Source of the DNA: Candidatus Zhuqueibacterota bacterium
Lineage (GTDB): Bacteria; Zhuqueibacterota; Zhuqueibacteria; Zhuqueibacterales; Geothermadaptataceae
Direction: 5' to 3'
DNA length: 50,061 bases
NCBI GenBank assembly: GCA_030950365.1
Contig: JAUZRQ010000092.1
Coordinates: 1-50,061 of the forward strand
Part shown: in pieces, positions 1 to 39,868 of the stretch
How the letters are laid out: each line of letters opens with the position of its first letter
Numbering within the stretch: position 1 is the stretch's first letter
Made by a program: the position numbers and the translations under genes
Notes under the pieces: model-generated
What the model saw: the letters and a program-made list of their open reading frames with translations, nothing else
Told to the model about the DNA's origin: nothing
Database searches by the model: none

Positions 1-1310
1 AGGCTCTACTGGCTTTTTTGTGGGTGATGCCTTATATTTTCAATTATGCGAGATACGGAATTTTACACAAAGCTTTTGGGCATAACTTCTCCGTGGGACG
101 TGAGTTTGGTTGAATTAGACACGGAAAAGGAAGAAGTCCAGATATGGATCAGGTATGGTTCTGGCCAGGCCTGCTGTCCGGAATGCGGGAAAGCGTATCC
201 CATTTACGATCACCGTAAGCCGCGCCGGTGGCGACATCTGGATACCTGCCAGATGAAGACCTGGCTTGTGTGTTCGGTTCCTCGCGTATCGTGTCCTGAG
301 CATGGTGTCATCACCATTGCCACGCCATGGGCCAATCCTCAGAGCCGTACAACACGGATGTTTGAGCGGTTGGCCATCGACATGTTGAAGGCCTTTAAGA
401 ACCAAACCAAGGTAGCTAGACTCTTGCGCATTAGCTTTGATCAAATTCATCATATCATGCATCAATCAGTTAAACGAGGACTCGCTCGTCGATCTAAGCA
501 ACACTCGCCGCGGCGCCTTGGCATGGATGAAAAAAGCTTTCAAAAGGGCCACCGCTACAGCACCATCCTCTCCGATCTGGACTCAGGTTGCGTCATTGAC
601 CTGTGTGAAAACCGCGATGAGGATTCCGCAACTGAATTAATTGACAAGAATCTAACACAAGAACAGAAACACAACATCCAGGCCGTGAGCCTGGATATGT
701 GGAAACCCTTTATTAATGCGGTAAAGACCTGTTTCCCGAACGCCGATATCGTGCATGATCGCTTCCATCTGGCAAAGTATCTCAATGAGGCCGTGGATAC
801 AACTCGGCGACAGGAAGTCCAACAGCTGGTCGAACAAGACCAAAAGAATCTGCTTAAAAGAACACGCTATATCTTCCTAACCAATCCGGAAAATTGGTCT
901 GAAGCGTATCTTGAGCGCTTCGAAGAGATTAAAACCGTGAACCTCAAAACTGCAGAAGCCTGGCAAATTAAAGAAAATTTCAAACCATTCTTCCAATTGG
1001 TATCAGTCGAACAGGGAAACGAGTACTTCCTCGAATGGTACAAGGATGCCATAAAAACCAATATCAAACCGATCCAAAAGGTCGCCAACATGTTCAAAAA
1101 ACATATCCAGGGGATTCTTAACTATCTCAAACACCGGATCACTAACGCGCTACTTGAATCCATAAACTCCATCATTCAACAAATTAAAAATATCGCCAGA
1201 GGATACAAATCCTTCGAAAACTTTAGAATCGCGGTCCTATTCCATCTCGGAAAATTAAACCTGTACCAATAAAAAAACCGGTTATCCCACAATTCCAATT
1301 TGGGGAACTT
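1..1310 (+). mobile_element. ISL3-family insertion sequence (ends approximate)
   Basis: The element is inferred from the intact ISL3-type transposase. The window begins with AGGCTCT, which resembles the GGCTCT tips of many ISL3 elements, followed by TTGTGGGTGATGCC at 18-31. Past the stop codon, the reverse complement of about 1279-1293 reads ATTGTGGGATAACCG, an imperfect partner, so an inverted-repeat pair is plausible but the outer right boundary is not fixed. No target-site duplication can be seen because the left flank lies outside the window. Confidence 0.55.
46..1272 (+). CDS. ISL3-family transposase
   Basis: This 408-residue protein is a full-length DDE transposase that would cut and rejoin the ends of its own insertion sequence. 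The N-terminus has a zinc-finger-like block (CCPECGKAYPIYDHR, about residues 43-57), then a helix-turn-helix region near residues 115-140. The catalytic triad can be placed at D161 (GMDEKSF), D217 (SLDMWKPF) and E371 (NALLESIN), with the family's HDRFH motif after the second Asp. Length and motif order match ISL3 elements, and the frame is intact, so the copy may be active. It uses more AT-rich codons than the genes that follow, which fits a mobile origin. The ATG at 46 is the first plausible start in the left end of the element. Confidence 0.93.
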   Translation: MRDTEFYTKLLGITSPWDVSLVELDTEKEEVQIWIRYGSGQACCPECGKAYPIYDHRKPRRWRHLDTCQMKTWLVCSVPRVSCPEHGVITIATPWANPQSRTTRMFERLAIDMLKAFKNQTKVARLLRISFDQIHHIMHQSVKRGLARRSKQHSPRRLGMDEKSFQKGHRYSTILSDLDSGCVIDLCENRDEDSATELIDKNLTQEQKHNIQAVSLDMWKPFINAVKTCFPNADIVHDRFHLAKYLNEAVDTTRRQEVQQLVEQDQKNLLKRTRYIFLTNPENWSEAYLERFEEIKTVNLKTAEAWQIKENFKPFFQLVSVEQGNEYFLEWYKDAIKTNIKPIQKVANMFKKHIQGILNYLKHRITNALLESINSIIQQIKNIARGYKSFENFRIAVLFHLGKLNLYQ

Positions 1311-16969: not shown

Positions 16970-17003
16970 AAAAAAAGCAGGTCAAATTGGCCTGCTTTTT
17001 TTT
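16970..17003. terminator. Bidirectional rho-independent terminator
   Basis: A-tract, then GCAGG-T-CAA-A-TTG-G-CCTGC, then eight T residues. The stem is symmetric and has A and T runs on its two sides, so it can end the + strand envelope operon and the convergent tRNA-Leu transcript. Confidence 0.9.
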
Positions 17004-23918: not shown

Positions 23919-24839
23919 TTGGGGCGAATATTGGAACATACGAAAAATAAGTTTGCCTACCGGATTCGCATAAATGCTTACCGGCTTGGCCAACTGATAG
24001 TAGGCTGTCCTGGGTCGGTTGCGCAATGGAATGATCTGTCCTTTGTATTCGTATTTCTTGAGGAAAACGGGCAAATTTTTAAGGCCAATACGGCTTTTCT
24101 GGAATTGTTGACATGGAACAAAGAGCCTATCTGGTCGGATTCCATTTTTGATTTGTTTATTACGGCATTGAAAAACTACTCTCGGCAATGCCCTGGACAA
24201 GTGCACCCGGCAAGCAAATCAAACACAGCAATTGCCCCTCAGAATGAAGTATTCTCGTCAACGATTTCTTTATGTTACAGTTAAAGCATGCGATTTTTCG
24301 GGGCCAAAGCCACTGATATTTTCAATCATTTTCGTTCCGCATGAAGCGCTTTTGCCCTCTAAACTATTAAAGAATTTATCTAACACATTCAAACTGTTCG
24401 CCAATGAAAGGATTTGTCATGTCCTGATCCACCGAGAGCGAAAAATTCTGGAGTGCCAGAAAAGCACTCAGCCTATTTGGGGTTTTGCAGTTGAATATTT
24501 GAGTTAGGAATGGATTTTTTTTAATTATTTGCAGAACCTCTTGAAGGATGGCAAATCTGGTTGAATTTGAAATCGGTTCAATCATTCAAAGAGGCTGTTC
24601 ACATCGCACGCAAGGATGCCGAAGCAATTCCCCTTCACCTGATCGCGTAGGCATTACCACTCTCCTCTGGAACGGAGAATTATTATCTATTGACTTTTTT
24701 TGACTTTTACTGGCTCGATGCATTTCGACAGGAGGTGCGCGCCTCAACAAAATCTTTTTCCCGATTGTTAAAGCCATTTTCGCAGGCCATTAGCACTATA
24801 GCCGATTTTACAGCTTCGGAGTGCCGAAATGAGCAATAA
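23919..24839 (+). pseudogene. Decayed PAS-domain sensor gene
   Basis: Three fragments in two frames reconstruct one protein. Frame A from 23919 gives a PAS start (FLEENGQIFKANTAFLELL). Frame B, about 24240-24507, continues (KPLIFSIIFVP) and opens a second PAS (VLIHRERKILECQKSTQPIW), ending in TAG at 24505. Past that stop, frame B still reads EWIFFNYLQNLL. Back in frame A, from about 24530, the rest of the PAS is clear (GWQIWLNLKSVQSFKEAVH, then ALPLSSGTENYYLLTFFDFY, then RQEV), with a TAG at 24648 and final TAA at 24837. The 3' end would overlap the next kinase gene by 11 bases, as an operon partner would. So at least two frameshifts and two stops disable it. It had no kinase domain; its partner was probably the adjacent kinase. 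Confidence 0.8.
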
Positions 24840-25896
24840 GGTTACCATAGAGCAGCTTCAATATCGATTCTTTTTAGAGAAGTTACGAACATCAGTGTAT
24901 CCCATTATTATCGTTAAAGATCATTCAATCCGATTCGCTAATGAAGCATTTGAATGCCTTTTCCCAAACCGATCAGACGGTCTAAAAGTAGATGAATTTT
25001 TCCAGGAGCTCATAGAACATATTCAATTTAAACCGAATCTTTCCACACTTATAAAGGCGAGCGATCTGCCAATACGAGGGAAGGCAACGGTTTTCGAGAA
25101 TGGTCGACTATTGTCATACGATCTTTTTGTATTTCCTGTAGGTTACACTGGCCTCAACGAGCGAATGTTCTGGTTTATCCCATCGCAATGCCACTGTAGT
25201 TCCGAAATATCCAACGATCAGCTCGAACGGCTTGCTTCGCTAGGTCAGATTTCTACCATCATTGCCCATGAGATTCGCAATCCACTCGGATCGATTCGGC
25301 TGAATTTGCAGTATCTTTCACAGCGGATTGCCATCCCTGAAGCCTATAAAAAGACTTTTAAAGATATTGAGATGGGCATTTACCGGATCGAAAAAGTGAT
25401 CCAGAGCATTTTGGATTATACCCGCCCGCAAACGCCAGAATTTCAGCCGATCTGTTTGCATGAGGTTTTGAATAGTCGAATTATAGCTTTTCAAAATGAA
25501 TTGAACTGCTCGGGGATTTCGCTGCGTGCTGAGTTAGGCGCCGAGCGAACGCATATTTTGGGGGATCCCAATATGCTCGATCGCGTTTTCGCTAATTTAA
25601 TGTCTAACGCATACGAAGCCATCGATCATCAGGGATCGATTGAAATCACAACTGGAAACCAAAATCAACAAATCTGGATAAAAATCCGTGACACTGGCCG
25701 GGGAATCCTGCCAGAAATATTGCCCAAAATCTACGATCCGTTTTTTACAGCCAAGTCCGAAGGCGTGGGCATTGGACTGGCCATTGTTAAGCGTATCCTG
25801 GACCTTCATCGAGCCGAAATTCAAGTGGAAAGCCGTGTCGGCAACGGTACGACGTTTCTATTGAAGTTTTCTGTAATTGATTCGGGGGAATCATGA
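24829..25896 (+). CDS. PAS-domain sensor histidine kinase (cytoplasmic, NtrB-like)
   Basis: The 355-residue kinase has no transmembrane segment, so it senses a cytoplasmic signal. A degenerate PAS domain (IIIVKDHSIRFANEAFECLF, about residues 25-45) precedes the dimerisation helix with the phosphorylated His at about H147 (IIAHEIRNPLGSIRLNLQYL). An ATPase domain follows with N box LMSNAYEAIDHQG, G1 IRDTGRGI, F box DPFFTAKSEG and G2 VGIGLAIVKRI. GGAGTG upstream of ATG 24829 is the ribosome-binding site. The next gene starts inside its stop codon (ATGA), so it is the cognate kinase of the NtrC-like regulator. Confidence 0.93.
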   Translation: MSNKVTIEQLQYRFFLEKLRTSVYPIIIVKDHSIRFANEAFECLFPNRSDGLKVDEFFQELIEHIQFKPNLSTLIKASDLPIRGKATVFENGRLLSYDLFVFPVGYTGLNERMFWFIPSQCHCSSEISNDQLERLASLGQISTIIAHEIRNPLGSIRLNLQYLSQRIAIPEAYKKTFKDIEMGIYRIEKVIQSILDYTRPQTPEFQPICLHEVLNSRIIAFQNELNCSGISLRAELGAERTHILGDPNMLDRVFANLMSNAYEAIDHQGSIEITTGNQNQQIWIKIRDTGRGILPEILPKIYDPFFTAKSEGVGIGLAIVKRILDLHRAEIQVESRVGNGTTFLLKFSVIDSGES

Positions 25897-27260
25897 AGAA
25901 TAATTTTAAAAAATCCATTTTGATCGTTGAAGATGATCGACTTTTTCGAAAGGCCATTCTGAATTTTTTGATTGAAAAATATGAAGTCATGGAGGCAGAC
26001 AATGCCGAGCATGCGCTTGAGATGATGAAATGCCATCTGCCGGATTTGCTAATCATCGATATTACCCTGCCCGGCCTGGACGGGATTGATTTTCTTGAAA
26101 AAATCAAGGTCAGCTATCCTGAGATTCCTGCCATTATGTTGACTGCCATGGATCGCATTCCCAAGGTCGTCGAGTGCATTAAAATGGGCGCTTTTGATTA
26201 TTTAACCAAGCCCATTGATGCCGAAGAATTGCTTCTGAGCATCGAGCGCGCACTGGAATCGGTGGAGATCCGAAAAGAGCTCGAGCAACGGAAACGGCTG
26301 CAACTTTTGGAAAATGAGGAAATCAAGCTGATTGGCTCGAGCGAATCCATGCGAAAGCTAAAAAATGAGATTAAGATTGTGGGTGAAACCGATGCCACGG
26401 TTTTGATCCAGGGCGAAACCGGCACGGGCAAAGAGGTGGTGGCCAGAGCCATTCATGCCGCCAGTCCACGAGCAGCAGGATCGTTCATTGCCATCAATTG
26501 CGGTGCCATCCCAAAGGAGTTGTTTGAATCCGAGCTGTTCGGACACAAACGCGGAGCCTTCACCGGCGCCGATAAAGATCAAATTGGCAAGTTTCAATTG
26601 GCCCATCGAGGCACAATTCTGTTGGACGAAATCGGCGAAATCCCCCTTGATGTGCAGGCCAAATTGTTGCGTGTTATTGAAGAGAAGAGCTTTTATCCCC
26701 TGGGCAGCAACGAGCTGGTCCGCGTCGATGTTCGTATCATTGCCGCTACCAATCGCGATTTGAAAAAGGAGGTTGAAAACGGCCTCTTTAGAGAAGACTT
26801 GTATTTTCGTTTGAATGTGTACGCCATCCATATTCCGCCCTTGCGGAAGCGGCCTGAGGATATCATAAGCCTTGCCATGCATTTTATGGAGCTTTTTAAC
26901 ATCAAATTTGGCAAAAAATTTAAGAGGATTAGTCCGGAGGCCAAAGCCATTCTCTTGCAATTGCCATGGACAGGAAATGTACGGGAATTGCGGAATACGA
27001 TCGAGCGAATTATACTTTTTGAATCAGGAACGGTGATCAAAAAGGAGCATCTTTATTTTATTGAAAAACCACATCCCGAAAAAAAATCGAAAACGATGTT
27101 TGAACTGCCCGAGGAAGGAATTGATCTGGAAGAAGTGGAAAAGAATTTCATCAAGCAGGCTTTGGAATTGGCCAAATACAACAAGACCAAAGCGGCGAGA
27201 TTACTCCGTTTGAGCCCGCCAACGCTGTATTACCGGCTACAAAAATATGGCTTTAAATGA
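25893..27260 (+). CDS. NtrC-family sigma-54 response regulator
   Basis: The 455-residue regulator has an N-terminal receiver (SILIVEDDRLF supplies the acidic pair, IIDITLPG the phosphorylated Asp, LTKPID the Lys). A sigma-54 AAA+ domain follows with Walker A GETGTGKE, the sigma-54-contacting loop KRGAFTGADK, ILLDEIGEIP as Walker B, and the arginine region FREDLYFRLNV. The C-terminal Fis-type helix-turn-helix is KYNKTKAARLLRLSPPTLYY. It activates sigma-54 promoters on phosphorylation by the overlapping kinase. Targets are not proven; palindromes and -24/-12-like sites downstream are candidates. Confidence 0.95.
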   Translation: MKNNFKKSILIVEDDRLFRKAILNFLIEKYEVMEADNAEHALEMMKCHLPDLLIIDITLPGLDGIDFLEKIKVSYPEIPAIMLTAMDRIPKVVECIKMGAFDYLTKPIDAEELLLSIERALESVEIRKELEQRKRLQLLENEEIKLIGSSESMRKLKNEIKIVGETDATVLIQGETGTGKEVVARAIHAASPRAAGSFIAINCGAIPKELFESELFGHKRGAFTGADKDQIGKFQLAHRGTILLDEIGEIPLDVQAKLLRVIEEKSFYPLGSNELVRVDVRIIAATNRDLKKEVENGLFREDLYFRLNVYAIHIPPLRKRPEDIISLAMHFMELFNIKFGKKFKRISPEAKAILLQLPWTGNVRELRNTIERIILFESGTVIKKEHLYFIEKPHPEKKSKTMFELPEEGIDLEEVEKNFIKQALELAKYNKTKAARLLRLSPPTLYYRLQKYGFK

Positions 27261-27478
27261 GAAAGCTTGTCGCTAATCAGTTAAGCTCTGTCATGATCGA
27301 ATTGGAACCTGGCTTGCTAGTTTTTCGCCGATGGGCAATGCCGATTCGCAAAGTATCGGCAGCGCGTTCGACGGAATGTGTGCGAATGACAAAAAGGGCT
27401 ACCTGCAACCCAATAGTTGCAAAAACGATACAGGAATTCCTCAAAATTTTAGCAAATGCTTAAATTTTCGAAAGTCGA

Positions 27479-27793: not shown

Positions 27794-28864
27794 ATGAGCA
27801 TCCGCGAAGGGATTTTCCGGCAAAATCTGGCTTGGAAGGATCTGCAAAGCATGCCCATGGAGCAATTCGAGGAAACTTATAGTTTTCACGGCATTGTGTG
27901 CCAATCCATGGTCATGCACGAGATTTGCCAGCTAATCCAGAAGGTATCGGCAACCGATGTTACGGTACTCATTTATGGCGAAAGCGGTACCGGCAAGGAA
28001 CTGGTAGCGCGAAATATTCATTTATTGAGCAAGCGCGCGGAAAAGCCTTTTATTCCGGTTGATTGCAACGCCTTGCCGGTGTCGCTCATGGAAAGTGAGT
28101 TGTTCGGATATGAAAAAGGCGCGTTTACTGGTGCGAATAAATCCAAATCCGGGCTGCTGGAATATGCGCAGGGAGGCACCTTTTTCCTAGATGAACTCAC
28201 CAGTCTTGATTTGAATCTTCAGGGCAAATTGTTGCGCGTCTTGCAAGAACGAGTGACCCGACGTATTGGTTCCACCGAGCAAATTCCAATCGATGTGCGA
28301 ATCATTGCGGCGACGAATATAAATCCTCAATTGGCTCTCAAACGCAATAAACTCCGGCTGGATCTTTATTACCGCTTGAATGTGGTGCCGATCCACATGC
28401 CTCCACTTCGAGAGCGCAAGGACGACATTCCGCTTCTGTTGAAATATTACAGCTATAAAATTGCCGAAAAAGAAGGCATTCGCGTCCGGCCGTTTTCTAA
28501 AGAAGCTGTAGAATTGTTGCAAAGTTATCACTGGCCCGGTAACATCCGTGAGCTCAAAAACATAGTCGAGCGCCTGCAAATACTTTGCGAAACCCGAGAA
28601 ATTCAGCCGGATCATGTGCTGAAAATTGCTGATATCGGCAATAAGCTGACAGCCGACCGCGAGCAAAAAAGCATATTGCAATACAATGTATTGCGAGCCA
28701 AAGTCCTGGCTGAGTTTGAGCGAAATTATATTCACAAATTGCTGAGGATTGCAAGGGGAAATATCTCTTTAGCCACCCGAATATCAGGTCTGACTCGCCC
28801 CACAATCTACCGAATGGTCAAAGAATACATTCCGAATAAAAATTTTAGAGAGTTTGCCTCTTAG
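27794..28864 (+). CDS. Sigma-54 activator lacking a receiver domain
   Basis: The 356-residue protein is an enhancer-binding AAA+ activator with only about 25 residues before the ATPase. The core has [15 protein letters not shown] (Walker A), EKGAFTGANK (sigma-54 loop), TFFLDELTSLD (Walker B) and LRLDLYYRLNVVPIHMPPLR. The C-terminus carries a Fis-like helix-turn-helix (GNISLATRISGLTRPTIYRM). Without a receiver it would be controlled by its own level or by a partner protein, as in PspF-type activators. Its promoter region shows a sigma-54-like site and palindromes, so it may control itself. It follows the NtrC-like gene by 533 bases and is transcribed separately. Confidence 0.92.
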   Translation: MSIREGIFRQNLAWKDLQSMPMEQFEETYSFHGIVCQSMVMHEICQLIQKVSATDVTVLIYGESGTGKELVARNIHLLSKRAEKPFIPVDCNALPVSLMESELFGYEKGAFTGANKSKSGLLEYAQGGTFFLDELTSLDLNLQGKLLRVLQERVTRRIGSTEQIPIDVRIIAATNINPQLALKRNKLRLDLYYRLNVVPIHMPPLRERKDDIPLLLKYYSYKIAEKEGIRVRPFSKEAVELLQSYHWPGNIRELKNIVERLQILCETREIQPDHVLKIADIGNKLTADREQKSILQYNVLRAKVLAEFERNYIHKLLRIARGNISLATRISGLTRPTIYRMVKEYIPNKNFREFAS

Positions 28865-29007
28865 CATTTGGCCAGGTCATCAAAGCCAATGGTAGCATGC
28901 ACCTTGATAAGAAACCCTTGAATGCGATTTGAAGCCGCAGTATGAGAATGTTGGCATTTAGAGGAATAGTGCTGTAAAAATGGATTACTTGTAACTGTTA
29001 AGTATTC

Positions 29008-29030
29008 TTTACAACCGGAAGTATTGTAAA
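29008..29030. promoter_or_regulatory. Inverted repeat TTTACAA-N9-TTGTAAA
   Basis: Perfect 7-base arms with a 9-base centre. The half-sites are the same words as in the palindrome at 29062, in the opposite arrangement. It lies about 180 bases before the -24/-12-like element. Confidence 0.42.
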
Positions 29031-29061
29031 AACAATAAGGTCAGGAATTGCAAGAAGATCG

Positions 29062-29079
29062 TGTAAAAGCAGTTTTACA
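29062..29079. promoter_or_regulatory. Perfect palindrome TGTAAAA-GCAG-TTTTACA, candidate sigma-54 enhancer
   Basis: The two 7-base arms are exactly complementary. It is the best copy of a motif also present at 27479 and 27603, and it lies 133 bases upstream of a -24/-12-like promoter. Confidence 0.5.
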
Positions 29080-29211
29080 AATTTTTGCTGCTGCCATGAA
29101 AAAGGCGCTGCTCGAAGAGCAAGCCGACTTTTAAGTAGTATTGTAGCTAACTCGTTGAAAAATTAAAGATAATTTTGATAGCATTTTGAAATTGAAACAA
29201 AAATGACGTAA

Positions 29212-29227
29212 TGGCACAATAGTTGAT
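29212..29227 (+). promoter_or_regulatory. Possible sigma-54 (-24/-12) promoter of the polysaccharide locus
   Basis: TGGCAC-AATAG-TTGAT: the -24 block is consensus and the spacing is right, but the -12 dinucleotide is GA rather than GC. A transcript would begin near 29239, about 100 bases before the receiver-like gene. Confidence 0.48.
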
Positions 29228-29336
29228 AAGATGCTGTCATAAAAAGGAAGACCAAGTTGCCTTTTCAGCCTGGACAAAGCAATGAACATCATTTCGAAAA
29301 GCGCAATGTAATAGGAGGGGGGATGGGGTAGCTTTG

Positions 29337-29696
29337 GTGGCATCTCAGGATTTGCGCGCGATATCAACCATTTCCGCATTGCTCGCAGAGAACAATTTTA
29401 CTTTTGAAATATTGGATGGGGGGACGGATTTAATTAAGAAAATAATTGACCATTCTGTTAATCTGGTTGTGCTTGATGCCGATTTGGAAAATCATTTGCC
29501 AGTCAGTGAAGTTGTTTCCATAATCAGAAAAGCGCGAGAAAAGATATTTATTGTAATCATTGCCAATCAAATTTCTTTACAACTGGGAAGGAAATTGGCG
29601 GAGTATCGAATCGCACTTTCTTTATTGAAACCCATTAATCGTGCCTTATTTTCTGAGTTTCTGACGCATTTGAGACAAAACGAAGCCATTCAATAA
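29337..29696 (+). CDS. Stand-alone receiver-like protein
   Basis: The product is about 119 residues with the alternating pattern of a response-regulator receiver. A possible phosphoacceptor is D47 (LVVLDADLEN), and a Lys-Pro pair is present in LLKPINR. The N-terminal acidic pair of receivers is replaced by SQD, so magnesium binding may be impaired and it may act without phosphorylation. It has no output domain. The start is uncertain: GTG 29337 is favoured because GGGGT sits eight bases upstream, while TTG 29334 is possible. It is directly followed by the antiterminator gene and probably regulates it or a protein partner. Confidence 0.6.
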   Translation: MASQDLRAISTISALLAENNFTFEILDGGTDLIKKIIDHSVNLVVLDADLENHLPVSEVVSIIRKAREKIFIVIIANQISLQLGRKLAEYRIALSLLKPINRALFSEFLTHLRQNEAIQ

Positions 29697-29718
29697 GGTG
29701 ATAGGAGCCGGGGGATTC

Positions 29719-30267
29719 ATGGTATCAACATCGGTTTCACAGGAAATACCGGAACGCTGGTATGCCATCTATTGCAAAAGTCGCCATGATGTGCAGGTTC
29801 GCAACCGACTCAAGAGCAAAGGGATTCAAACGTATCTGGCTGAATACAGGACGCGTGTGCGATGGGGGCAGCGCATTCGAAAAGTTACCCGAAATCTCTT
29901 ACCCGGCTATGTCCTGGTTCGAATTCAACTGACTCCCAAAAACTATTTGCGTGTATTGCAAACGCAGGGGGTGGTCCGGTTTATTGATAAGCCGTGGCCT
30001 CATGTTCCCTGGATTCCGGACGAGCAGGTCGATAGTTTGCGTTTGTTGCTGAATTCCAATTGCCCTTTCGAAGAAGTTCCGTACTGGGATTGTGGCGAAG
30101 AGGTGGAAATTATCGCTGGAGCCCTGAAAGGACTTCAAGGGAAGGTCGTAGAGTTTTCAAAAAAGAAGAACATTGTTGTTGTTTCCATCGATTTGTTAAA
30201 GCGCAGCGTCGCTGTTGAAATCAATGCGGCGCTACTTCGTCGCAAGAAAAAGATTCTGGTTGCTTGA
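29719..30267 (+). CDS. NusG-like specialised transcription antiterminator (UpxY/RfaH type)
   Basis: The 182-residue protein has the NusG N-terminal domain (RWYAIYCKSRHDVQVRNRLK, then VTRNLLPGYVLVRIQL, GVVRFIDKPWPHVPWIPDEQ) and a C-terminal KOW-type domain (CGEEVEIIAGALKGLQGKVV). This is the layout of UpxY, LoaP and RfaH proteins that let RNA polymerase read through long polysaccharide operons. Its place just before a hairpin-rich leader and the first sugar transferase fits that role. ATG 29719 is preferred, with AGGAG 11 bases upstream. An in-frame GTG at 29698 would add seven residues (MIGAGGF). Confidence 0.88.
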   Translation: MVSTSVSQEIPERWYAIYCKSRHDVQVRNRLKSKGIQTYLAEYRTRVRWGQRIRKVTRNLLPGYVLVRIQLTPKNYLRVLQTQGVVRFIDKPWPHVPWIPDEQVDSLRLLLNSNCPFEEVPYWDCGEEVEIIAGALKGLQGKVVEFSKKKNIVVVSIDLLKRSVAVEINAALLRRKKKILVA

Positions 30268-30545: not shown

Positions 30546-31451
30546 ATGGGCACAGTTGTCTTTGAAAAAGGTATCGACATTGCACGAATTGCCGCAGATG
30601 AAAACCGACGGATTGCATCTTACCGCAAAGGCAATCTCGCACTTCGTCTGGCGGACCGGGTTCAGTTCGCACTGGTGTCTGCTACTTTTACGACTTTGTC
30701 GCTTCTGGTCAATATTGCCTTACCCAAAAATTTATCGCTTACCATATCCCGGACACGAGTTCTGCAAACGCTCAACAATGCGGCAATCCGGTGGATTGAT
30801 ATTTTGGGGGCATTTGTTGGACTTGTGTTTTCGATTCCATTGTTTCTCATCGTCCCGATACTCATCAAGCTGGATAGCCCCGGACCGGTATTTTATCGTC
30901 AATTGCGTACAGGAATCAATCGGCGTAAAGGCGAGCGCCGGCATGCCAATCTGGGTATTGGCATTGATCGACGCATGCAGCAGCGGCGCAAGCACAATTT
31001 GTTTGGCCGGCCTTTTGTGATATATAAATTTCGAACCATGCATGTTGGAGCCGAAAAGGAAAGCGGGCCAGTATGGGCCAGGGAAGATGACCCTCGAATT
31101 ACCCGCATTGGCAAGTATCTCCGAAAGTTTCATATCGATGAAATTCCCCAGTTCTGGAATATTTTGAAAGGGGAAATGAGCCTTGTGGGGCCGCGTCCAG
31201 AGCGCCCCGAAATTATTCGCAAATTAGTTGAAGAAATTCCAGATTATCAGGCAAGATTGTCTGTAAGGCCGGGATTGACCGGTCCGGCGCAAATTTTCAA
31301 TGGCTATGACACCAATCTGGAAGATGTTCGCCGGAAATTGCAGTATGATCTTGAATATCTCCAAAAACGAGGCCCTGTTTATCATCTTCAAATGATTTTT
31401 TTAACGCTTGCCAGATTATTGACCAACTTCCCAAACAACGAAACGGGTTAA
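30546..31451 (+). CDS. Undecaprenyl-phosphate sugar-1-phosphate transferase
   Basis: This 301-residue membrane enzyme starts polysaccharide synthesis by moving a sugar phosphate onto undecaprenyl phosphate. The core has a single reentrant helix (DILGAFVGLVFSIPLFLIVP), DSPGPVFYRQLRTG, FVIYKFRTM, the E-D-D-P-R-I-T-R-I-G block, the KFHIDEIPQFWNILKGEMSL segment (key DEIPQ, N-x-L-K-G) and GPRPERPE. It lacks the four-helix N-terminus of full PHPT proteins. An Arg-rich insertion of about 30 residues (INRRKGERRHANLGIGIDRR onward) separates the two substrate-binding blocks. GGGGG six bases upstream of ATG 30546 is the ribosome-binding site. Confidence 0.93.
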   Translation: MGTVVFEKGIDIARIAADENRRIASYRKGNLALRLADRVQFALVSATFTTLSLLVNIALPKNLSLTISRTRVLQTLNNAAIRWIDILGAFVGLVFSIPLFLIVPILIKLDSPGPVFYRQLRTGINRRKGERRHANLGIGIDRRMQQRRKHNLFGRPFVIYKFRTMHVGAEKESGPVWAREDDPRITRIGKYLRKFHIDEIPQFWNILKGEMSLVGPRPERPEIIRKLVEEIPDYQARLSVRPGLTGPAQIFNGYDTNLEDVRRKLQYDLEYLQKRGPVYHLQMIFLTLARLLTNFPNNETG

Positions 31452-31454
31452 ACC

Positions 31455-32222
31455 ATGAATGGTAACATCAAAACGCTGGTTGCCGGAATGGCCCTTTCCG
31501 GTTTGTTTGTAATCACACCTGCAATTTATGCCCAGGATGGTTCAACCAATGGCAAAAACGCTGTCAACACCGGCATTGTCATTAGCTCGATTCCACAGGG
31601 GACCCTGGTTTATCTCAAAGGCGAATTCGAGTTTTTCGGGCGTACGCCATTGGTGTTGCCGTACAAGCTGTTTGGCAAGTACAGGATCAAGGCCTATAAA
31701 AATGGCTATGAAACCGTAAACACGGTTTACGATTTCACTGGCGAAAAAGGTGGCACATTTATGGTCAAGTTGCGTCCCAAAACCCGCACCAAAGCCTTTG
31801 CCCGATCGTTGCTTTTTCCAGGGTGGGGGCAATACTACTCGAGTCGCAAAACTTCAGGCACGTTGTTTCTAACTGCCACCATGGCAGCGTTGGTGATGGT
31901 CGCTGCCGATCAAAACCAATATCAAAAGGCGCTGAATCAATATGATCAGGCATTGGTCCGCTTCCAGCGCGAAAGCAACAGTTTTGAGGAGCAAAAAGCT
32001 GCCTTTGATGATCTTCAGCGAGCCATCACAAATGTGGAAAATAAGCGAAATCAGAGAAATATTAGCGCAGCCGTTGTCGCTGGAATTTGGCTTTTAAATG
32101 CGCTCGAGAGCGTTCTGTTTTTCCCCGATTTCAGCTCGCAAATTGAATTTTTCAATAACTTCTCTGCAAAAGCTGAACTTCGAGAGGATAACCTGGCCCT
32201 GGTCCTTCGATACCGCTTTTAA
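31455..32222 (+). CDS. PEGA-domain, DUF5683 membrane protein
   Basis: The 255-residue protein has a signal peptide (LVAGMALSGLFVITPAIYAQ) and a PEGA domain (SIPQGTLVYLKGEFEFFGRT, then IKAYKNGYETV). The DUF5683-type membrane part begins RSLLFPGWGQYYSSRKTSG, has a helix TLFLTATMAALVMVAADQ, a short coiled coil and a second helix ISAAVVAGIWLLNALESVLF. PEGA domains are often found on cell-surface proteins of the FCB group. The role in this locus is unknown. It starts three bases after the stop of the sugar transferase and is surely in the same operon. Confidence 0.82.
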   Translation: MNGNIKTLVAGMALSGLFVITPAIYAQDGSTNGKNAVNTGIVISSIPQGTLVYLKGEFEFFGRTPLVLPYKLFGKYRIKAYKNGYETVNTVYDFTGEKGGTFMVKLRPKTRTKAFARSLLFPGWGQYYSSRKTSGTLFLTATMAALVMVAADQNQYQKALNQYDQALVRFQRESNSFEEQKAAFDDLQRAITNVENKRNQRNISAAVVAGIWLLNALESVLFFPDFSSQIEFFNNFSAKAELREDNLALVLRYRF

Positions 32223-32233
32223 GGGATGAGAAA

Positions 32234-33835
32234 ATGTGGAGCGTACAAAAAGAGCGATTGATTGCTTCAACTGGATGGCTGATTTTCATTAGCCTGGCTC
32301 TGTTTGGACAGTTCTCCTGCCAGGATTTCACACCCGTCCAGCTTCAAAAAGAGTCTGTTTTCTTGCCGCCACCGCAAAATGTTGTTTTAAAATTAGGCAA
32401 TGGTAGCGTCACCCTGAGATGGGAATATCCGGATACCATCGCCGTCAAGGAATTCCGAATTTACCGCCGCTCGAGTGGAGATGAAGATTTTACCCGCATT
32501 GCTACTACCGAAGAAAAATGGTACCGGGATACCTTTTTGGCTAACGGCAGCCGCTATGAATATGAGATCGCTGCGGTAAGTAAAGAAGGAATTGAAGGTG
32601 AGCATTCTAAAAGCGTTGTAGGAGTACCGGCTATCTATAGTTTGATAATAAATGATGGTACAGTATATACAAATAGCAGGCAGGTAAAAATTACTATTAC
32701 GGCGCCGAATAATACAACACTGATGATGTTATCAAACGATTCTGCGTTCACAAATGCTAAATGGGAGCAATTTAAAACGACGCGATATTGGGATTTATCA
32801 TTTGGTGATGGACCTAAAACCGTCTACGCAAAGTTTCGCAACATTGATGATCAAGAACTTGATCAACCTGTTAAAGCAGATATAATTTTGGATCAGGTAG
32901 CTATTATTAATTTTTTGGAAGAGGATAGCAATGGGAAGATTTTGCAGTCTGGGGATACGCTTCATATAAAGATGGGAACGGGTGAGATCGGAGGGAAAGC
33001 GAGTGTTGACATAGTAGATGTTAGTAGGTCAGTAAATGATTATACAGCAAGAGAGGAAGATATTAAACTATTTGATGACGGTAGCCACGGAGATAAAGTG
33101 CCCAATGATGGTATTTATGAGCGAGACTATTATGTTCGTCAAGGATTACAAATGGAAATGGCCTTTGTTTTCGGAAGGTTTGAAGATGCAGCGGGAAACC
33201 AAGCTCGAGCAACAGCATCGTCAAGAGTTACAATTCAATCTCGACCGCTTCCTGTTTACTTATTTGAACCCATCATTCTATCTTCAGATATTCCTAAATT
33301 AAAAATACGTTGGACGGCAAATCATGACGGCGATTTTGCAGCATATCAATTGGTCAGATCTAAATCTTCCAATATTTCATTGGCTTCAAGATTAATTACA
33401 GAGATTGAAGACATAAATGTGGTCTCTTATACTGACGTAGATTTAGAGCCAGGGACTGAATATTATTACCAAATATATGTTTTTGATCAAGCCGGCAATA
33501 ATTCAGGTAGTAATGTTGTTAAAGCAACCACCCCTGAAAATGTTCCTCCCAAGCCAGTGGTGTTGTCACAACCTGTTCAAGATACACTCTCTTTGAAATT
33601 AACCTGGTCACCTTCCACAGCCGAAGATTTTGCAAATTATCGCCTCTACCGTTCCGTCAGTTCGCCTGTGGATACCACTTATGCACCTATTGCGATCATC
33701 AACGATGCCAACATCACCGAATTTCGGGATTTCAGTGCGACGCCGAATATTACCTATTTCTACCGTATCTTTGTCTTTGACAAGTGGGGATTGTCGGCGG
33801 GCAGCAACGAGGTCCGGGGTAAATTTGTCAGATAA
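32234..33835 (+). CDS. Fibronectin type III repeat lipoprotein
   Basis: The 533-residue exported protein starts with a hydrophobic signal ending FGQFSCQD, a lipobox-like site with an unusual residue at -3. Three Fn3-like modules are visible: about residues 45-135 (NVVLKLGNGSVTLRWEYPD), 350-440 (PKLKIRWTANHDGDFAAYQL) and 445-530 (LKLTWSPSTAEDFANYRLYR). Between them lies an Ig-like region ending in LFDDGSHGDKVPNDGIYERD, a pattern seen in surface proteins. It probably sits in the outer membrane. From about 32640 to 33590 the codons are clearly more AT-rich than the gene ends, which suggests a replaced middle. AAGGGATGAG upstream is the ribosome-binding site. Confidence 0.8.
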   Translation: MWSVQKERLIASTGWLIFISLALFGQFSCQDFTPVQLQKESVFLPPPQNVVLKLGNGSVTLRWEYPDTIAVKEFRIYRRSSGDEDFTRIATTEEKWYRDTFLANGSRYEYEIAAVSKEGIEGEHSKSVVGVPAIYSLIINDGTVYTNSRQVKITITAPNNTTLMMLSNDSAFTNAKWEQFKTTRYWDLSFGDGPKTVYAKFRNIDDQELDQPVKADIILDQVAIINFLEEDSNGKILQSGDTLHIKMGTGEIGGKASVDIVDVSRSVNDYTAREEDIKLFDDGSHGDKVPNDGIYERDYYVRQGLQMEMAFVFGRFEDAAGNQARATASSRVTIQSRPLPVYLFEPIILSSDIPKLKIRWTANHDGDFAAYQLVRSKSSNISLASRLITEIEDINVVSYTDVDLEPGTEYYYQIYVFDQAGNNSGSNVVKATTPENVPPKPVVLSQPVQDTLSLKLTWSPSTAEDFANYRLYRSVSSPVDTTYAPIAIINDANITEFRDFSATPNITYFYRIFVFDKWGLSAGSNEVRGKFVR

Positions 33836-33852
33836 ACAAAGGAATTTGCTCA

Positions 33853-34704
33853 ATGAGTGCTAAAGAATTGACCAAACTTCAGTTGCTCATGGCAGCATGG
33901 CGGCAGACCATTAGCTGCATGAAAATTCCGCGCTTTTACACTCCGTTTATCGTGTATGCGCTGCTGCAGGTGTTTATATTAATCGGTTTTGTGCTATTCA
34001 ACTATTTCCCTTTTTCCAAAATTTTCATGCCCATTCAAAAAGCTATCTATGGAGAAGCAGCGCTGCATTATCCAAATAATTTTATCATCTTACCAAGCTT
34101 GTTTGATATTACCAACATTGCACTGAGCGGTATCGCCGGCATTCTGGTGTTGGCTCTGGCAACGCAATATTTCTTTTTCTATACTGACAAAAAGAATATT
34201 CCTGGAGGATCGGTTCGAGAAGTGTTGCGAAGATTCCCCGATTTATTTGGCGTCTGGGTAATCGAAACAGCGGTCATACTTGGTTTGATCTATGGGGCAA
34301 CCATTGTGAGTCCTGATTATCCCAATTATGTATCTTTCATTACAGCAGGAAGAATCACCGGCGCTGTGGTAATCATGGCAGCGTTTGCCTATGCTATTGT
34401 CATTATTGTCACTGAAGGAAAGCGATTTTGGGCGGCCATTTGGAAAAGCTTTCGGCTGTTCGTTCGGTATTTTTACATAACGCTATTAATGATTGCAGTC
34501 CCAATTCTGATTTTGCAAATCCCGCTTGATCTGATGCTCACCAATACGCCGGAAATCGCCAAAAAATTGTCCCCCGAAATCATTCCAGTGCTTATCGGCA
34601 GCGATATTGTATTTTCCATTTTGCTCAACTTTATGGTCATCGGGGCCATAACCTTCTTTTATAAAACGGCTGTTGTGGCAAACGAAAAGGCCTTGTTGGT
34701 ATGA
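33853..34704 (+). CDS. Six-helix inner-membrane protein, unknown
   Basis: The 283-residue protein has about six hydrophobic helices, for example FIVYALLQVFILIGFVLF near residue 38, IALSGIAGILVLALATQYFF near 95, VWVIETAVILGLIYGATIV near 138, and ITGAVVIMAAFAYAIVIIV near 180. The short N-terminal cytoplasmic segment is amphipathic. I recognise no catalytic motif or family. Its position between surface and TPR lipoproteins of the polysaccharide locus suggests a role in export or in membrane organisation, but this is only context. AAAGGAA supports the ATG at 33853. Confidence 0.72.
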   Translation: MSAKELTKLQLLMAAWRQTISCMKIPRFYTPFIVYALLQVFILIGFVLFNYFPFSKIFMPIQKAIYGEAALHYPNNFIILPSLFDITNIALSGIAGILVLALATQYFFFYTDKKNIPGGSVREVLRRFPDLFGVWVIETAVILGLIYGATIVSPDYPNYVSFITAGRITGAVVIMAAFAYAIVIIVTEGKRFWAAIWKSFRLFVRYFYITLLMIAVPILILQIPLDLMLTNTPEIAKKLSPEIIPVLIGSDIVFSILLNFMVIGAITFFYKTAVVANEKALLV

Positions 34705-34725
34705 TGAGAAATTTTCGGAGTTAAA

Positions 34726-36186
34726 ATGAAAAAGTTTCTTGTGGTTGTTGTGCTTATAACTCTGGGCTGCGCCGAAAAGGGCCCCGAATTTGAGCGCTAT
34801 CAACTGGAAAAGGCATTTTTTAAGGCCCAGAAAATTGTGCAAAAGATTTATATCAATCCACGAATTGCCCCTATAACCGATTTTGAAAAGGCCAAAAGGC
34901 TATTGCTAAAAGTGGCATTTGCTTATGATTCCATTGGCCTCCGGCCCGATACCTCGTTGATGTGCTACAGTTTGCTGACCCTGGCGCAATTGGAAATTTT
35001 GCAGGAAAACCCTCAAAACGCGATTGAATATTACAACCTATATCTACGAAACACCAACAATCACGAAAATCCAAATGAAATTTCAGCTCGCATCAATTTG
35101 GGCTTTTTGTACGAACGTATTCTGGCATATCAGGATGCCGCAAAGGAATATGCTCACGTGCTTGACAAATTGATGGATGAAATTAATCCCAACTCACCGA
35201 AACCTTATCTCATCGCCATCCCATTCCAATATGCCAGGATCTATAAATACGATTTAGGCAATGGCAGTTATAAAGCCGCCGTTACCCGGGCCAGCAAGGT
35301 TTACCAGGACATGCTTCAGCGCTGGCCTAACTCTAAAGCGGCGCTGTTGGCGTTGAATTATGTATCCTTAATAATGCTACAAAACAAAGATTACAGCCGG
35401 CTACAGCAAATTTTAGATGAACAGCTCCAAATTACTCAGGATACAACCATACTGGCACGCTTGCAGTTTTTGCAGGCCAAAATCATGCTGGCTCAGCACG
35501 TTGATCCGGCAACAGTTATTCGGCAGTTGCAAAGAATCATTACAAACTATCCCGATTCTGAAATCATTGCGGCCGTGAAGCTGGAGCTGGCAAAAGCTTA
35601 TTTGCAACAGCAGCGATTCGAAAAAACGCGATTAATTCTGAAGGATATTTTGAACAATTATTTGGAGAATTTTATTGTAGCCGCAGAAGCCCAGGAACAG
35701 CTTGCCTTGAGTTTCGAGCTGGAAGGACGATGGGATCAGGCCTTGAATGAATATCGCTGGCTGAGCAAGCAATTCGAAACATCGCTGCAGGGACTAACAG
35801 CGCCTTTGAAAATCGCCAATTATTATTTGCAGCAAAACAACATTGCCCTGGCTGACCAGGCCTTCAATGAGGCTATTGAATTCTACCAGGAGCTCGTAAG
35901 GAAATATCCGAGCTCCATTCTGGCAGCGATGGCGCAGGAGCAAATCAGCAAATGCTTTATGGCTCAGCGGAAATATGAGGAGGCCATCGGAGCCGTCAAA
36001 AAAATCAAAGAAATCTGGAGCAACAGCGCCGGCGTGATTAGCACTTATCTGCTTTTGGGCAAAATTTATGAGGCATCCAATCAATATTCGCTGGCGGCGA
36101 GAGCGTACAAAGAAATCGCCACACAATTTCCGCAGCATCCGCTGGCTCCCCTGTTTGATGAAAAAGCTCGCCAATTGCTAAATTGA
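34726..36186 (+). CDS. TPR-repeat lipoprotein
   Basis: The 486-residue protein has a short signal with a good lipobox, VLITLGC, so it is anchored by a lipidated Cys at about residue 15. The rest is helical TPR-like repeats (NPQNAIEYYNLYLRN, DAAKEYAHVLDKLMDE, NIALADQAFNEAIEFYQELV, YSLAARAYKEIATQFPQH). This kind of protein is found in XrtA-type exopolysaccharide loci as an assembly partner, but the repeats alone do not prove that. CGGAG upstream gives the ribosome-binding site. The next gene starts two bases past its stop codon. Confidence 0.8.
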   Translation: MKKFLVVVVLITLGCAEKGPEFERYQLEKAFFKAQKIVQKIYINPRIAPITDFEKAKRLLLKVAFAYDSIGLRPDTSLMCYSLLTLAQLEILQENPQNAIEYYNLYLRNTNNHENPNEISARINLGFLYERILAYQDAAKEYAHVLDKLMDEINPNSPKPYLIAIPFQYARIYKYDLGNGSYKAAVTRASKVYQDMLQRWPNSKAALLALNYVSLIMLQNKDYSRLQQILDEQLQITQDTTILARLQFLQAKIMLAQHVDPATVIRQLQRIITNYPDSEIIAAVKLELAKAYLQQQRFEKTRLILKDILNNYLENFIVAAEAQEQLALSFELEGRWDQALNEYRWLSKQFETSLQGLTAPLKIANYYLQQNNIALADQAFNEAIEFYQELVRKYPSSILAAMAQEQISKCFMAQRKYEEAIGAVKKIKEIWSNSAGVISTYLLLGKIYEASNQYSLAARAYKEIATQFPQHPLAPLFDEKARQLLN

Positions 36187-36187
36187 T

Positions 36188-38317
36188 ATGAGCGTAATAT
36201 TCGCAAAAATCCTTGCTGTTATCAATATTACCGCGGCATCCTGGCTGTTTGTTCTCCTATCGCGATCTATATTACCCGGTCTGAGAAGACTCCGTTTGGC
36301 GACGATTGCCTATATTTTGGCGAATGCCAACTTTTTCCTCGTGCTCGAATTTCCTGGATTGCCAGTCGCTTATCTAACGCTCGGCTGGTTAGGGTTAGTT
36401 TTCATCGGTGGTTTAATGTTTGGCCTGAGGCCCTTTTGGCGCAAAAAATGGCAGTATCTTGTAATTACCGGCGCAACCTGGATGGCGGTTTTTATTTTTT
36501 TCTGGGTTCATCTGTATTTCGGGCTGTTCCAAATTGCAATCAAAACGGATCAAAGCACGCTCATATTTGCCTTAACGCGTGCCGGACGCTTTTTCCTGCT
36601 GCTAATTTATTTGCCAGTAATTCTGATCCTGATCTTCTGGCAGAGCTGGTCAAAAGAAGTGGATCATTATTTTGGAAAATCCGCCAGATATTTGAAAATT
36701 TTGATAGCCCTGATGCTGGCCGTGAGTTTTGGCGCTTTAACTCATCTTTATTTCTATTCCCAAATCAATTCCGTACTGTCTCTTTTGGCATATTTGCTAA
36801 ACGGATTGATGATTGCATCGGTAGCGTTTTTCATTTCCCGCGCACCGGCAACGAGCCGGAGGTTTGAATTGCCTGTGAAGCAAAGCGCTTTTGCAAGTTC
36901 CTCCATATTAATCTACCTCGGAATTTATTTCTTAATCTCAGGCGGACTTCTCAAACTTTTCATAACATATGATGGCTTTTGGCAGAGTATTTTTCGTGCC
37001 GTATCTATTGCTGGTATTGCCTTTTTAGCCTTGCTGTTGACTGCTGGAAAACAACTGCGGCAAGCTTGGATTCAGCTCGTTCAGAAGTTGCTCATAGTTC
37101 CAAAATATGATTTTCGTGAGGAATTGTCGCGATTTACCAGGGCGGTCAGTCAGGCCAAGGATGAAAAGGCTTGCATCCAAGCCATTTTGAAAACGGTGCG
37201 CTCAGTGTTTCATGTGAACAATGCGGCCCTTTGTTTAGTGCAGCCCGGAGTTCCTGAGTTACGCATCATACGTTTAGAAGAGGGCCAGGGGGTATCCGAA
37301 GCAGGCATTTTGAAAAATCTGCCCAAAAAAAAATTACGGATCCTGTTGCAATATGCAAAAGAACATGATATTCAACCGGTTGCACGATTGCAGGAATTGA
37401 TTCAGGACAGGGAAACCGGGCAATATCTGGATACGTTTAGAGTATTCCTGCCGATTCAGGCCGGGGAGCAGCTTATCGGGTTGTTGCTGCTGGGAGCCGG
37501 TGATGAAGCTACTGACTTTGACTATGAGGACCGGCAGTTACTTCAGCTTTTCACGAACGCCATCGGAATTGCTCTTCATCGCATTCAATTGTATGAGGAT
37601 TTGATGCTGGCCAAGCAACAAGAAGCCATGAGCCGGCTGGCAAGTTATGTTCTGCATGAGCTTAGAAACAATACATCCATTCTAAGTCTGCTGGTGCAAA
37701 ATGCGAAGAAAAACTTTCAAAAGCCCGACTTCCAAAAGGAGTTTTTGAAAGGCGTGGCGGCGGTTTCGGGCGAAATGCATACACTTATCCGGAAAATAGG
37801 CGCCTTTAAGGATGGGAAAATCGAGGTGCAACGGAAACCGGTGAACCTTCATCAGTTGATATGGCAAATCAGTCAGGAACTTCAAATTCCTGAAAAGTTT
37901 GAGCTTCAAATGGATATCCCAGATGAAATCGTGGCCCACTGGGACCGTGAATTGATCAAAATGTCATTTCGAAATCTTTTAATGAATAGCATTGAAGCCA
38001 TGCCGGATGGGGGCAAAATCGAAATCAGCGCCATACAAACGAATCATCATTTGCGAATCCAGATTCAAGATTGGGGATCGGGAATGAGCAAAGCTTTCAT
38101 AAAAGATCATTTGTTTCGTCCATACGATACCACCAAGCCGCATGGCCTGGGATTGGGCATGCATCAAGCTCGCGAAATCATTCAGGCGCACGAAGGCAGC
38201 ATCCGCGTGCAGAGCCAACCAGGAAAAGGCACGACGGTGATTATCGATTTGCCTTTAGGCCAGCGTCAGCAAATCCAGCAATCAAAGGTTGCCGCAAAGA
38301 GCATTGCTTTGGCGTGA
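36188..38317 (+). CDS. prsK: PrsK-like membrane histidine kinase
   Basis: The 709-residue kinase has an N-terminal membrane domain of about eight helices (to residue 300), then a GAF domain (about 330-465, with IQAILKTVRSVFHVNNAALC and VFLPIQAGEQLIGLLLLGAG). The dimerisation helix has phosphorylated His about H490 (ASYVLHELRNNTSILSLLVQ), and the ATPase domain has LMNSIEAMPDGG, QDWGSGM and GLGLGMHQAREII. The architecture is that of PrsK, the kinase of XrtA/PEP-CTERM-type exopolysaccharide loci. The symbol is by architecture and neighbours. The PrsR-like regulator follows. Confidence 0.82.
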   Translation: MSVIFAKILAVINITAASWLFVLLSRSILPGLRRLRLATIAYILANANFFLVLEFPGLPVAYLTLGWLGLVFIGGLMFGLRPFWRKKWQYLVITGATWMAVFIFFWVHLYFGLFQIAIKTDQSTLIFALTRAGRFFLLLIYLPVILILIFWQSWSKEVDHYFGKSARYLKILIALMLAVSFGALTHLYFYSQINSVLSLLAYLLNGLMIASVAFFISRAPATSRRFELPVKQSAFASSSILIYLGIYFLISGGLLKLFITYDGFWQSIFRAVSIAGIAFLALLLTAGKQLRQAWIQLVQKLLIVPKYDFREELSRFTRAVSQAKDEKACIQAILKTVRSVFHVNNAALCLVQPGVPELRIIRLEEGQGVSEAGILKNLPKKKLRILLQYAKEHDIQPVARLQELIQDRETGQYLDTFRVFLPIQAGEQLIGLLLLGAGDEATDFDYEDRQLLQLFTNAIGIALHRIQLYEDLMLAKQQEAMSRLASYVLHELRNNTSILSLLVQNAKKNFQKPDFQKEFLKGVAAVSGEMHTLIRKIGAFKDGKIEVQRKPVNLHQLIWQISQELQIPEKFELQMDIPDEIVAHWDRELIKMSFRNLLMNSIEAMPDGGKIEISAIQTNHHLRIQIQDWGSGMSKAFIKDHLFRPYDTTKPHGLGLGMHQAREIIQAHEGSIRVQSQPGKGTTVIIDLPLGQRQQIQQSKVAAKSIALA

Positions 38318-38464
38318 TCGAAGTTGGCGGGAGTAATGGTTCTTAGTCCAAAATCTTCATTTATTAAGCTCAAGTGCACCAATCAGGGGGAATCCAATAT
38401 GCAAATAGGATTGGCTGAGTCGCCGATGGGCGCTCCTTGAAATGAATTATTGTCTGAGGACATC
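38318..38464. other. Short gap between kinase and regulator
   Basis: About 150 bases that contain a purine run CAGGGGG at 38384-38390 and no promoter I can support. A TTG at 38450 is in frame with the next gene but lacks a ribosome-binding site. Confidence 0.4.
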
Positions 38465-39868
38465 ATGGAAGCCAGAATTCCAAAAGTTATGATTGCCGAT
38501 GATGATGAGCTGCTGTGCCAGCAGTTGAAATGGGGACTTGAGGATGATTATCTAATTGTGATGGCGCATGATCCCGGAGAAGCGCGCAAAAAATTTCGAA
38601 AATACCATCCTGATGTGGTTATGCTCGATTTGAATTTTAGCAGTGACGCGGCTGCTCCCCAGAATGAAGGCTTGCAGATTTTGGAAGAATTTATTGAGAC
38701 CGGGCAATATGCGAAAATCATTGTTATCACCGGGCAGCAGGAAAAGGAAATTGCTCGATCGGCTCTGAATGCGGGTGCCTTTGATTATGTGCTCAAACCC
38801 TTTGACATTGATGAACTGAAAGTATTGTTGAAACGAGCGCTTTTTTTACGCGAGGTGGAGCGAGATGCTGAGGACTGTGATCCCCTGATACTGGATGGCC
38901 ATTTCGGTTCAATCATCGGCCAGTCCGAAAAAATGCGCCGCATTTTTCAACTGGTCAAAATCGTGAGCGATACCGACGCTACGATATTGATTACAGGCGA
39001 GAGCGGCACGGGCAAAGAAGTCATAGCACGATTGATTCACCAGTGCAGCGAGAGAAAAAATCATGATTTTGTGGCGATCAACTGCGGCGCGATCCCTGCC
39101 GGTCTACTCGAAAGCGAATTGTTTGGTCATGAAAAGGGTGCGTATACCGGAGCCGTTGGGACGGTGAAAGGCAAATTCGAGTTGGCGCATGATGGTACAC
39201 TTTTTTTGGATGAAATTGCCGAGATGCCGCTCGCGCTGCAGGTCAAACTATTGCGTTTTCTGCAGGATCATACCATCCAACGCATTGGCGGGCTTCAAGA
39301 TATTAAGTTAAATGTGCGGATCATTGCAGCGACCAATAAGGACCTGAAAACCGAAATTCAGAATGGCCAGTTTAGAGAAGATCTCTTTTATCGATTGAAT
39401 GTGGTTTCCGTTGATATGCCTCCGCTGCGTGAACGTGAGGAAGATATCCAACTGATGGCCATTCATTTCCTCAAGGTGTTTGCGGCGAAATACAAAAAAA
39501 ATATTACCGGCATATCTCCTCGTGCCATGAAGATGATCAAACAGTACCGATGGCCTGGAAATGTGCGTGAATTGGAAAACAAGATTCGCAAGGCAGTCAT
39601 TCTCGCAAGGCATAATGTTCTTTTGCCGGGGGACTTCGATCTCGATACCGATGCCGAGACCAAAAGCGAGGGCTGGTCTTACAAGCATGCCATGCTGCGG
39701 GCGGAGCGAGAAATCCTATTGCAAGCCCTTCGGCGTCATCAGGGAGTCATTGCCCACATTGCCGAAGATTTGAAACTGAATCGTAGCACGCTTTACGATC
39801 TGCTACGAAAACACAATCTGGATTATAAAAAATACAGAACAGTGCAATCAAATCGGACAATCGAATGA
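38465..39868 (+). CDS. prsR: PrsR-like sigma-54 response regulator
   Basis: The product, about 467 residues, has a receiver domain with acidic pair MIADDDEL, phosphorylated Asp about D55 ([10 protein letters not shown]) and Lys in VLKPFD. The receiver has a longer loop after the phosphosite ([20 protein letters not shown]), as in PrsR proteins. The AAA+ domain has GESGTGKE, the sigma-54 loop [10 protein letters not shown] (Tyr in place of Phe) and [11 protein letters not shown] Fis-type helix-turn-helix ([20 protein letters not shown]) ends it. In PEP-CTERM systems PrsR drives sigma-54 promoters of the locus. ATG 38465 has GAGGA six bases upstream. The symbol is by domain pattern. Confidence 0.84.

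Follow-up and report, generated by a model that had tools for sequence, protein, structure and literature searches.

A predicted sigma-54 enhancer arrangement with two 18-bp boxes at the head of an exopolysaccharide locus in a Candidatus Zhuqueibacterota bacterium

We analysed a 50,061-nt stretch of DNA from a Candidatus Zhuqueibacterota bacterium (GCA_030950365.1, contig JAUZRQ010000092.1, positions 1-50,061, forward strand), hereafter the window, with a focus on the region between the gene for a sigma-54 activator and a block of exopolysaccharide genes. This region contains two 18-bp boxes followed by a sigma-54-like promoter, and comprises, together with the genes on either side, the following features:

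27794-28864, + strand: sigma-54 activator with AAA+ and Fis-type helix-turn-helix domains and no receiver domain, from a clade whose genes precede a box and sigma-54 site in several relatives
28973-28979, no strand: isolated half-site TGTAAAA, role uncertain
28996-29013, no strand: predicted distal activator box TGTTAAGTATTCTTTACA, TGT-N12-ACA, 18 bp, starting 216 bp before the promoter
29025-29031, no strand: isolated half-site TGTAAAA between both boxes, role uncertain
29062-29079, no strand: predicted proximal activator box TGTAAAAGCAGTTTTACA, a perfect 18-bp inverted repeat starting 150 bp before the promoter
29080-29211, no strand: AT-rich spacer, presumed loop region, 67% AT overall and 75% in 29135-29211
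29212-29227, + strand: sigma-54-like promoter TGGCAC-N5-TTGAT, 11/12 consensus positions
29334-29696, + strand: short divergent receiver-like protein, predicted first gene of the transcript, acid pair replaced and phospho-acceptor Asp kept
29698-30267, + strand: UpxY-type NusG-family antiterminator, 99.4 bits, just below the curated cut-off of 100
30546-40851, + strand: downstream exopolysaccharide/prs block (sugar transferase, PEGA, fn3, lipoprotein, PrsK-like kinase, PrsR and Wza)

The interval from the stop codon of the activator gene to the promoter contains TGT-N(8..14)-ACA elements at exactly two positions, 28996 and 29062. Each is 18 bp long, and they lie 66 bp apart in the common frame TGT-N12-ACA, both ending in TTTACA and with inner bases that conform to TGTWAA..TTWACA. 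An earlier reading of this DNA from its letters alone (the sequence-only reading) had described a cluster of palindromes and half-sites here, of which the perfect inverted repeat at 29062-29079 is indeed present. The half-site given at 28973 is TGTAAAA as described, while the one given at 28989 is in fact TGTAAC at 28990; the inverted repeat proposed for 29008-29030 does hold TTTACA (29008-29013) and TGTAAA (29025-29030), but these are the right half of the distal box and a stray half-site. Two 18-bp boxes in a shared TGT-N12-ACA frame describe the cluster better. A 28-codon open reading frame (29048-29134, TTG start, helical-looking) overlaps the proximal box, and is possibly a gene remnant or a chance occurrence.

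The TGGCAC-N5-TTGAT motif reported at 29212 was found at 29212-29227, with a predicted transcription start near 29238, and only one other site in the window, at 4233 within a gene, reached an equally high sigma-54 scan score. Compared with TGGCAC-N5-TTGCW (-24 GG/-12 GC), the -24 element and the 10-bp spacing are exact and the -12 element has GA instead of GC; variant -12 elements are found elsewhere, as G001, the genus mate, again has TTGAT, and the paralogue of the activator on contig 56 (C56) has TTGAG. Sigma-54 upstream activating sequences are typified by repeated or palindromic sites approximately 80-200 bp upstream, a description that suits the two 18-bp palindromes at 216 and 150 bp, the nearer of which is separated from the sigma-54 motif by a 132-nt spacer. 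All box and promoter scans used a simple consensus, with no trained matrix.

We then asked how much of this layout chance would produce. A lone palindrome with 7-bp arms is unremarkable, as approximately one third of composition-matched shuffled regions have one, and the recurrence of the half-site has only marginal significance if the choice of k-mer is left free (P 0.07-0.13 for 7- and 6-mers). A sigma-54 site of at least 11/12 on the + strand was rare in shuffles (P = 0.005). Two or more TGT-N12-ACA elements were equally rare (P = 0.005), 0/5000 shuffles held two in which at least 6/8 pairs were palindromic, and the 5-Mb genome contains TGTNAA-N6-TTNACA 7 times (control 3), twice at this locus. 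The 18-bp frame was, however, settled after the sites were seen, which makes both box P values and the genome count optimistic. The comparative evidence is free of this weakness.

We located homologues of the 27794-28864 activator in relatives, then fetched and scanned the DNA around them. In G027, G033, G001, G015 and G022, as well as at the contig-56 paralogue of the same genome, a sigma-54-like site lies downstream of the activator gene and is preceded at a distance of 101-137 bp by an 18-bp TGT-N12-ACA box; in G008 the corresponding distance is 194 bp. The closest match to the window is G022 (L250), where a kinase and an activator are followed by two 18-bp boxes 65 bp apart, an 11/12 sigma-54 site, a homologue of the 29334 protein, UpxY and Wza. 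The order of activator, 18-bp box, sigma-54 site and receiver-like gene is also seen in G033, G027 and G015, with PEGA/fn3/Wza following in G033, and the position of the promoter ahead of a receiver gene and exopolysaccharide genes is a recurrent one. Directly downstream of the closest paralogue in the same genome (52%, contig 56), TGTAACATTTTTGTGACA stands 105 bp before TGGCACAATTATTGAG, and this box and promoter are conserved blocks in G001. When the regions downstream of 22 genes for activators of this type or similar were compared (window excluded, some outside the tightest clade), 18 bp was the commonest TGT..ACA length, with 10 occurrences spread over 7 loci, where 200 shuffles gave 2.5 on average and 8 at most, and most of these regions also contain a sigma-54-like site. 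The elements, their non-random layout and the recurring series of activator gene, 18-bp box and sigma-54-like site, both in relatives and beside the closest own paralogue, can be seen directly in the DNA. Use of the activator orthologue as a marker in relatives was dropped on account of too many paralogues. On contig 56 (L266:4454-6906, G000:C56), the paralogous activator, 18-bp box and sigma-54 site are followed by a gene for a conserved 129-aa protein (FKxDLIQDxLCQIDYQAA...) of no Pfam family, which is also present in G001, G003, G008, G012 and G013.

A wider set of 124 intergenic sigma-54-like sites was drawn from loci not fetched by box. Upstream of these, TGT..ACA peaks at total lengths of 16, 17 and 18 (14, 21 and 12, versus 4.9 +/- 1.7 for other lengths) in a set that is enriched for such promoters, many of the loci having been fetched for carrying activators, but for no particular box length. 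The ACA..TGT control at the same sites lacks the 16-18 peak.

The comparative evidence supports the central proposal of the sequence-only reading, that the exopolysaccharide locus is headed by a sigma-54 enhancer and a -24/-12 promoter, and we consider it very probable that the boxes and the 29212 site form such an arrangement. In the mechanism that we infer, the boxes at 28996 and 29062 would serve as an upstream activating sequence, both occupied by a Fis-type sigma-54-dependent activator, most likely the receiver-less 27794-28864 protein. The DNA would loop across the AT-rich spacer, allowing the activator to drive open-complex formation by sigma-54 polymerase at 29212-29227, and the transcript from near 29238 would enter the receiver-like gene, the UpxY-type antiterminator and the exopolysaccharide genes. 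Judging from their direction and close spacing, the genes from 29334 through Wza would form one transcript. We assign this explanation as a whole, with 27794-28864 as the most likely binder and a sigma-54 start into the exopolysaccharide genes, a probability of roughly 0.62.

Several observations weigh against it. That the 27794-28864 protein is the binder is inferred from neighbourhood and phylogeny, and the recognition helices of the activators vary among relatives. The -12 element TTGAT departs from TTGCW, the distance of 150 from box to promoter exceeds the ~101-137 of most relatives, and 15/22 of the regions behind similar activators have no 18-bp box. At the DNA level the region had no match in 39 relatives, and it left no direct footprint because the locus is missing from the genus mate. 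The genome-wide enrichment of the exact palindrome that the sequence-only reading had looked to did not materialize: there is 1 exact copy, and at 2 mismatches the 38 matches are level with the 37 for the reversed control. The literal palindrome was rejected as a genome-wide motif; its enrichment fails because only the TGT...ACA frame recurs and the inner bases vary between promoters. A search across the class for boxes paired with a promoter returned 65 matches versus 6 for the reversed pattern, which lends weak support, because this control does not hold the sigma-54 site constant and the inner bases of the 65 matches are no more complementary than background (P=0.42).

The three sigma-54 activators said to be encoded nearby are present (25893-27260, 27794-28864 and 38450-39868), and two of them are alternative candidates for binding the boxes:

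24829-27260, + strand: histidine kinase (24829-25896) and NtrC-type regulator with a receiver (25893-27260), upstream of the receiver-less activator
38450-39868, + strand: PrsR, rival binder, TIGR02915 512.7 bits against a cut-off of 502.6

The alternative that survives best, although we regard it as unlikely, is that PrsR binds the boxes as a variant of the PEP-CTERM box, such that the prs/exopolysaccharide operon would be self-activating. As published, a PEP-CTERM box has 17 nt with TTTACA at its end, in some cases occurs in repeat upstream of a sigma-54 site, and is separated from the sigma-54 motif by 63 +/- 11 nt (range 32-92) (PMC1569441). The window boxes have the same TTTACA end and are likewise repeated, and the 38450-39868 protein both passes the curated PrsR model and groups with the PrsR proteins of relatives. 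Tandem boxes 63-68 bp apart are also found ahead of PEP-CTERM genes in G014, G044 and the same genome, and in G038, which has a syntenic sugar transferase-PEGA-fn3-PrsK-PrsR block, TGTATCAATTCTTTACA and TGTATCACACGAATACA (17 bp) precede a sigma-54-like site at the head of the block. PrsR was at first favoured as the binder from the TTTACA similarity, and was demoted once 17- and 18-bp boxes were compared. The boxes found ahead of PEP-CTERM genes in G014, G038 and G044, which are predicted to be those of PrsR, are 17 bp, and boxes of the same length were found at the PrsR loci of a Vibrio plasmid and a Thermodesulfovibrionia bacterium. A PEP-CTERM gene in the same genome has tandem 17-bp boxes of its own, CGTCGGAATTCCCAACA and TGTTGGTATTTCCAACA, 64 bp apart and followed by TGGCAT-N5-ATGCC (by inspection). 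At the locus, by contrast, the boxes are 18 bp, no TGT-N11-ACA occurs in the region despite the TTTACA end, and the 132-nt spacer of the nearer box falls outside the published 32-92 nt. Furthermore, the 18-bp arrangements of G022, G033, G027 and G015 occur without PrsK, as no full PrsK was found in these genomes at E <= 1e-50. Since 17-bp boxes of the same genome are available to PrsR and the 18-bp boxes track the other activator family, PrsR is the less likely binder and, contrary to the hint in the sequence-only reading, not our first choice. It is still a live alternative, given that both kinds of box have the 3' half-site and the tandem spacing in common and that 17-bp boxes occupy the equivalent position in the syntenic G038 operon. 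The genome encodes one exosortase and two PEP-CTERM genes, and the 17-bp boxes and -24/-12-like site ahead of one of the latter are at L235:799-993 (G000:C1, about 135540-135734).

It is improbable that the boxes are instead a target of the adjacent two-component system through its NtrC-type regulator, 25893-27260. This regulator is encoded beside a kinase and immediately upstream, and kinase-activator pairs stand ahead of the promoter in G022, G027 and G012; however, it has an AtoC/ZraR-like recognition helix and does not belong to the clade with 18-bp boxes behind its genes, and the 27794-28864 gene intervenes between the regulator gene and the boxes. Least credible is that the palindromes arose by chance, or are there for a repressor or for sigma-70 transcription, and that the 29212 site is no promoter: single 7-bp-arm palindromes are frequent by chance, weak sigma-70-like sites number 5 versus 1.5 expected, and the 28-codon frame overlaps the proximal box, but an activator gene followed by two boxes in an identical 18-bp frame and by a sigma-54-like site, in an order repeated in relatives, argues otherwise.

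A second intergenic sigma-54-like site, TGGAACCTGGCTTGCT (10/12), is located at 27303-27318, upstream of the receiver-less activator gene, and could put the 27794-28864 activator under the 25893-27260 regulator as a cascade. No remnant of a lost receiver domain was found upstream of 27794. In the alignment of the receiver-like protein 29334-29696, the acid pair is replaced (V-A-S-Q-D), the Lys-Pro is mostly retained, and the invariant residues are the phospho-acceptor Asp plus the start and one Pro. Its weak TTG start lies 15 nt after AGGAGG and its N-terminus is shorter than those of its homologues, such that a misplaced start or a frameshift is possible. Elsewhere in the window, a strong inverted repeat with 12-bp arms that ends in a T run (16970-17002) is likely a terminator after the gene ending at 16936.

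The TGT...ACA frame is shared with the upstream activating sequence of NifA, TGT-N10-ACA, which is located 100-200 bp upstream of -24/-12 promoters; the NifA site is 16 bp rather than 18, and its regulon is unrelated. For sigma-54 activators of Desulfovibrio vulgaris, TGT/ACA half-sites 12 bp apart have been published, and the activator genes often adjoin the promoters they control (PMC4641369). Both locus boxes fit the definition of this TGT-N12-ACA motif group, and as such spacing is already published the locus is another case of a known type, although the organism is unrelated and the TGTWAA..TTWACA inner bases and exopolysaccharide target are specific to this locus. The PEP-CTERM box/PrsK-PrsR system resembles the locus in its TTTACA 3' half, repeated box, sigma-54 site, exopolysaccharide genes, PrsK and PrsR (PMC1569441). 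Apart from the box length and spacer described above, the locus differs in that an exopolysaccharide operon rather than a PEP-CTERM gene is predicted to be controlled, and in that the 18-bp-box architecture is also found in genomes without PrsK. In Aquincola, the RpoN-dependent pepA promoter, which has a predicted enhancer and a link to flocs and exopolysaccharide, has been mapped and its activity tested in an rpoN1 mutant, whereas the promoter at 29212 is predicted from sequence (PMC9850573).

More speculatively, and in our view doubtfully, the kinase, sigma-54 activator, 18-bp boxes, sigma-54 promoter and acid-pair-less receiver-like protein, with a UpxY-type antiterminator or export genes behind them in several genomes, may constitute a lineage-wide module for exopolysaccharide control. 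The stand-alone receiver-like protein might then act in trans as the regulatory domain of the activator or as a feedback brake, a role proposed because the activator in the window itself has no receiver domain and the receiver-like gene would be the first switched on. This split between receiver and activator is the unusual side of the window, and is suggestive only.

Collectively, the locus would be a sound but unexceptional bacterial switch, one that provides a concrete entry point to the regulation of exopolysaccharide genes in a lineage of bacteria that has been little studied. The comparison sets apart two classes of sigma-54 activator boxes, those of 17 bp before PEP-CTERM genes and those of 18 bp behind the 27794-28864 activator family. 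While the PEP-CTERM motif was found only in Proteobacteria in 2006 (PMC1569441), boxes of this type are present in this genome, G014, G038, G044 and a Thermodesulfovibrionia bacterium, and thus extend beyond that description.
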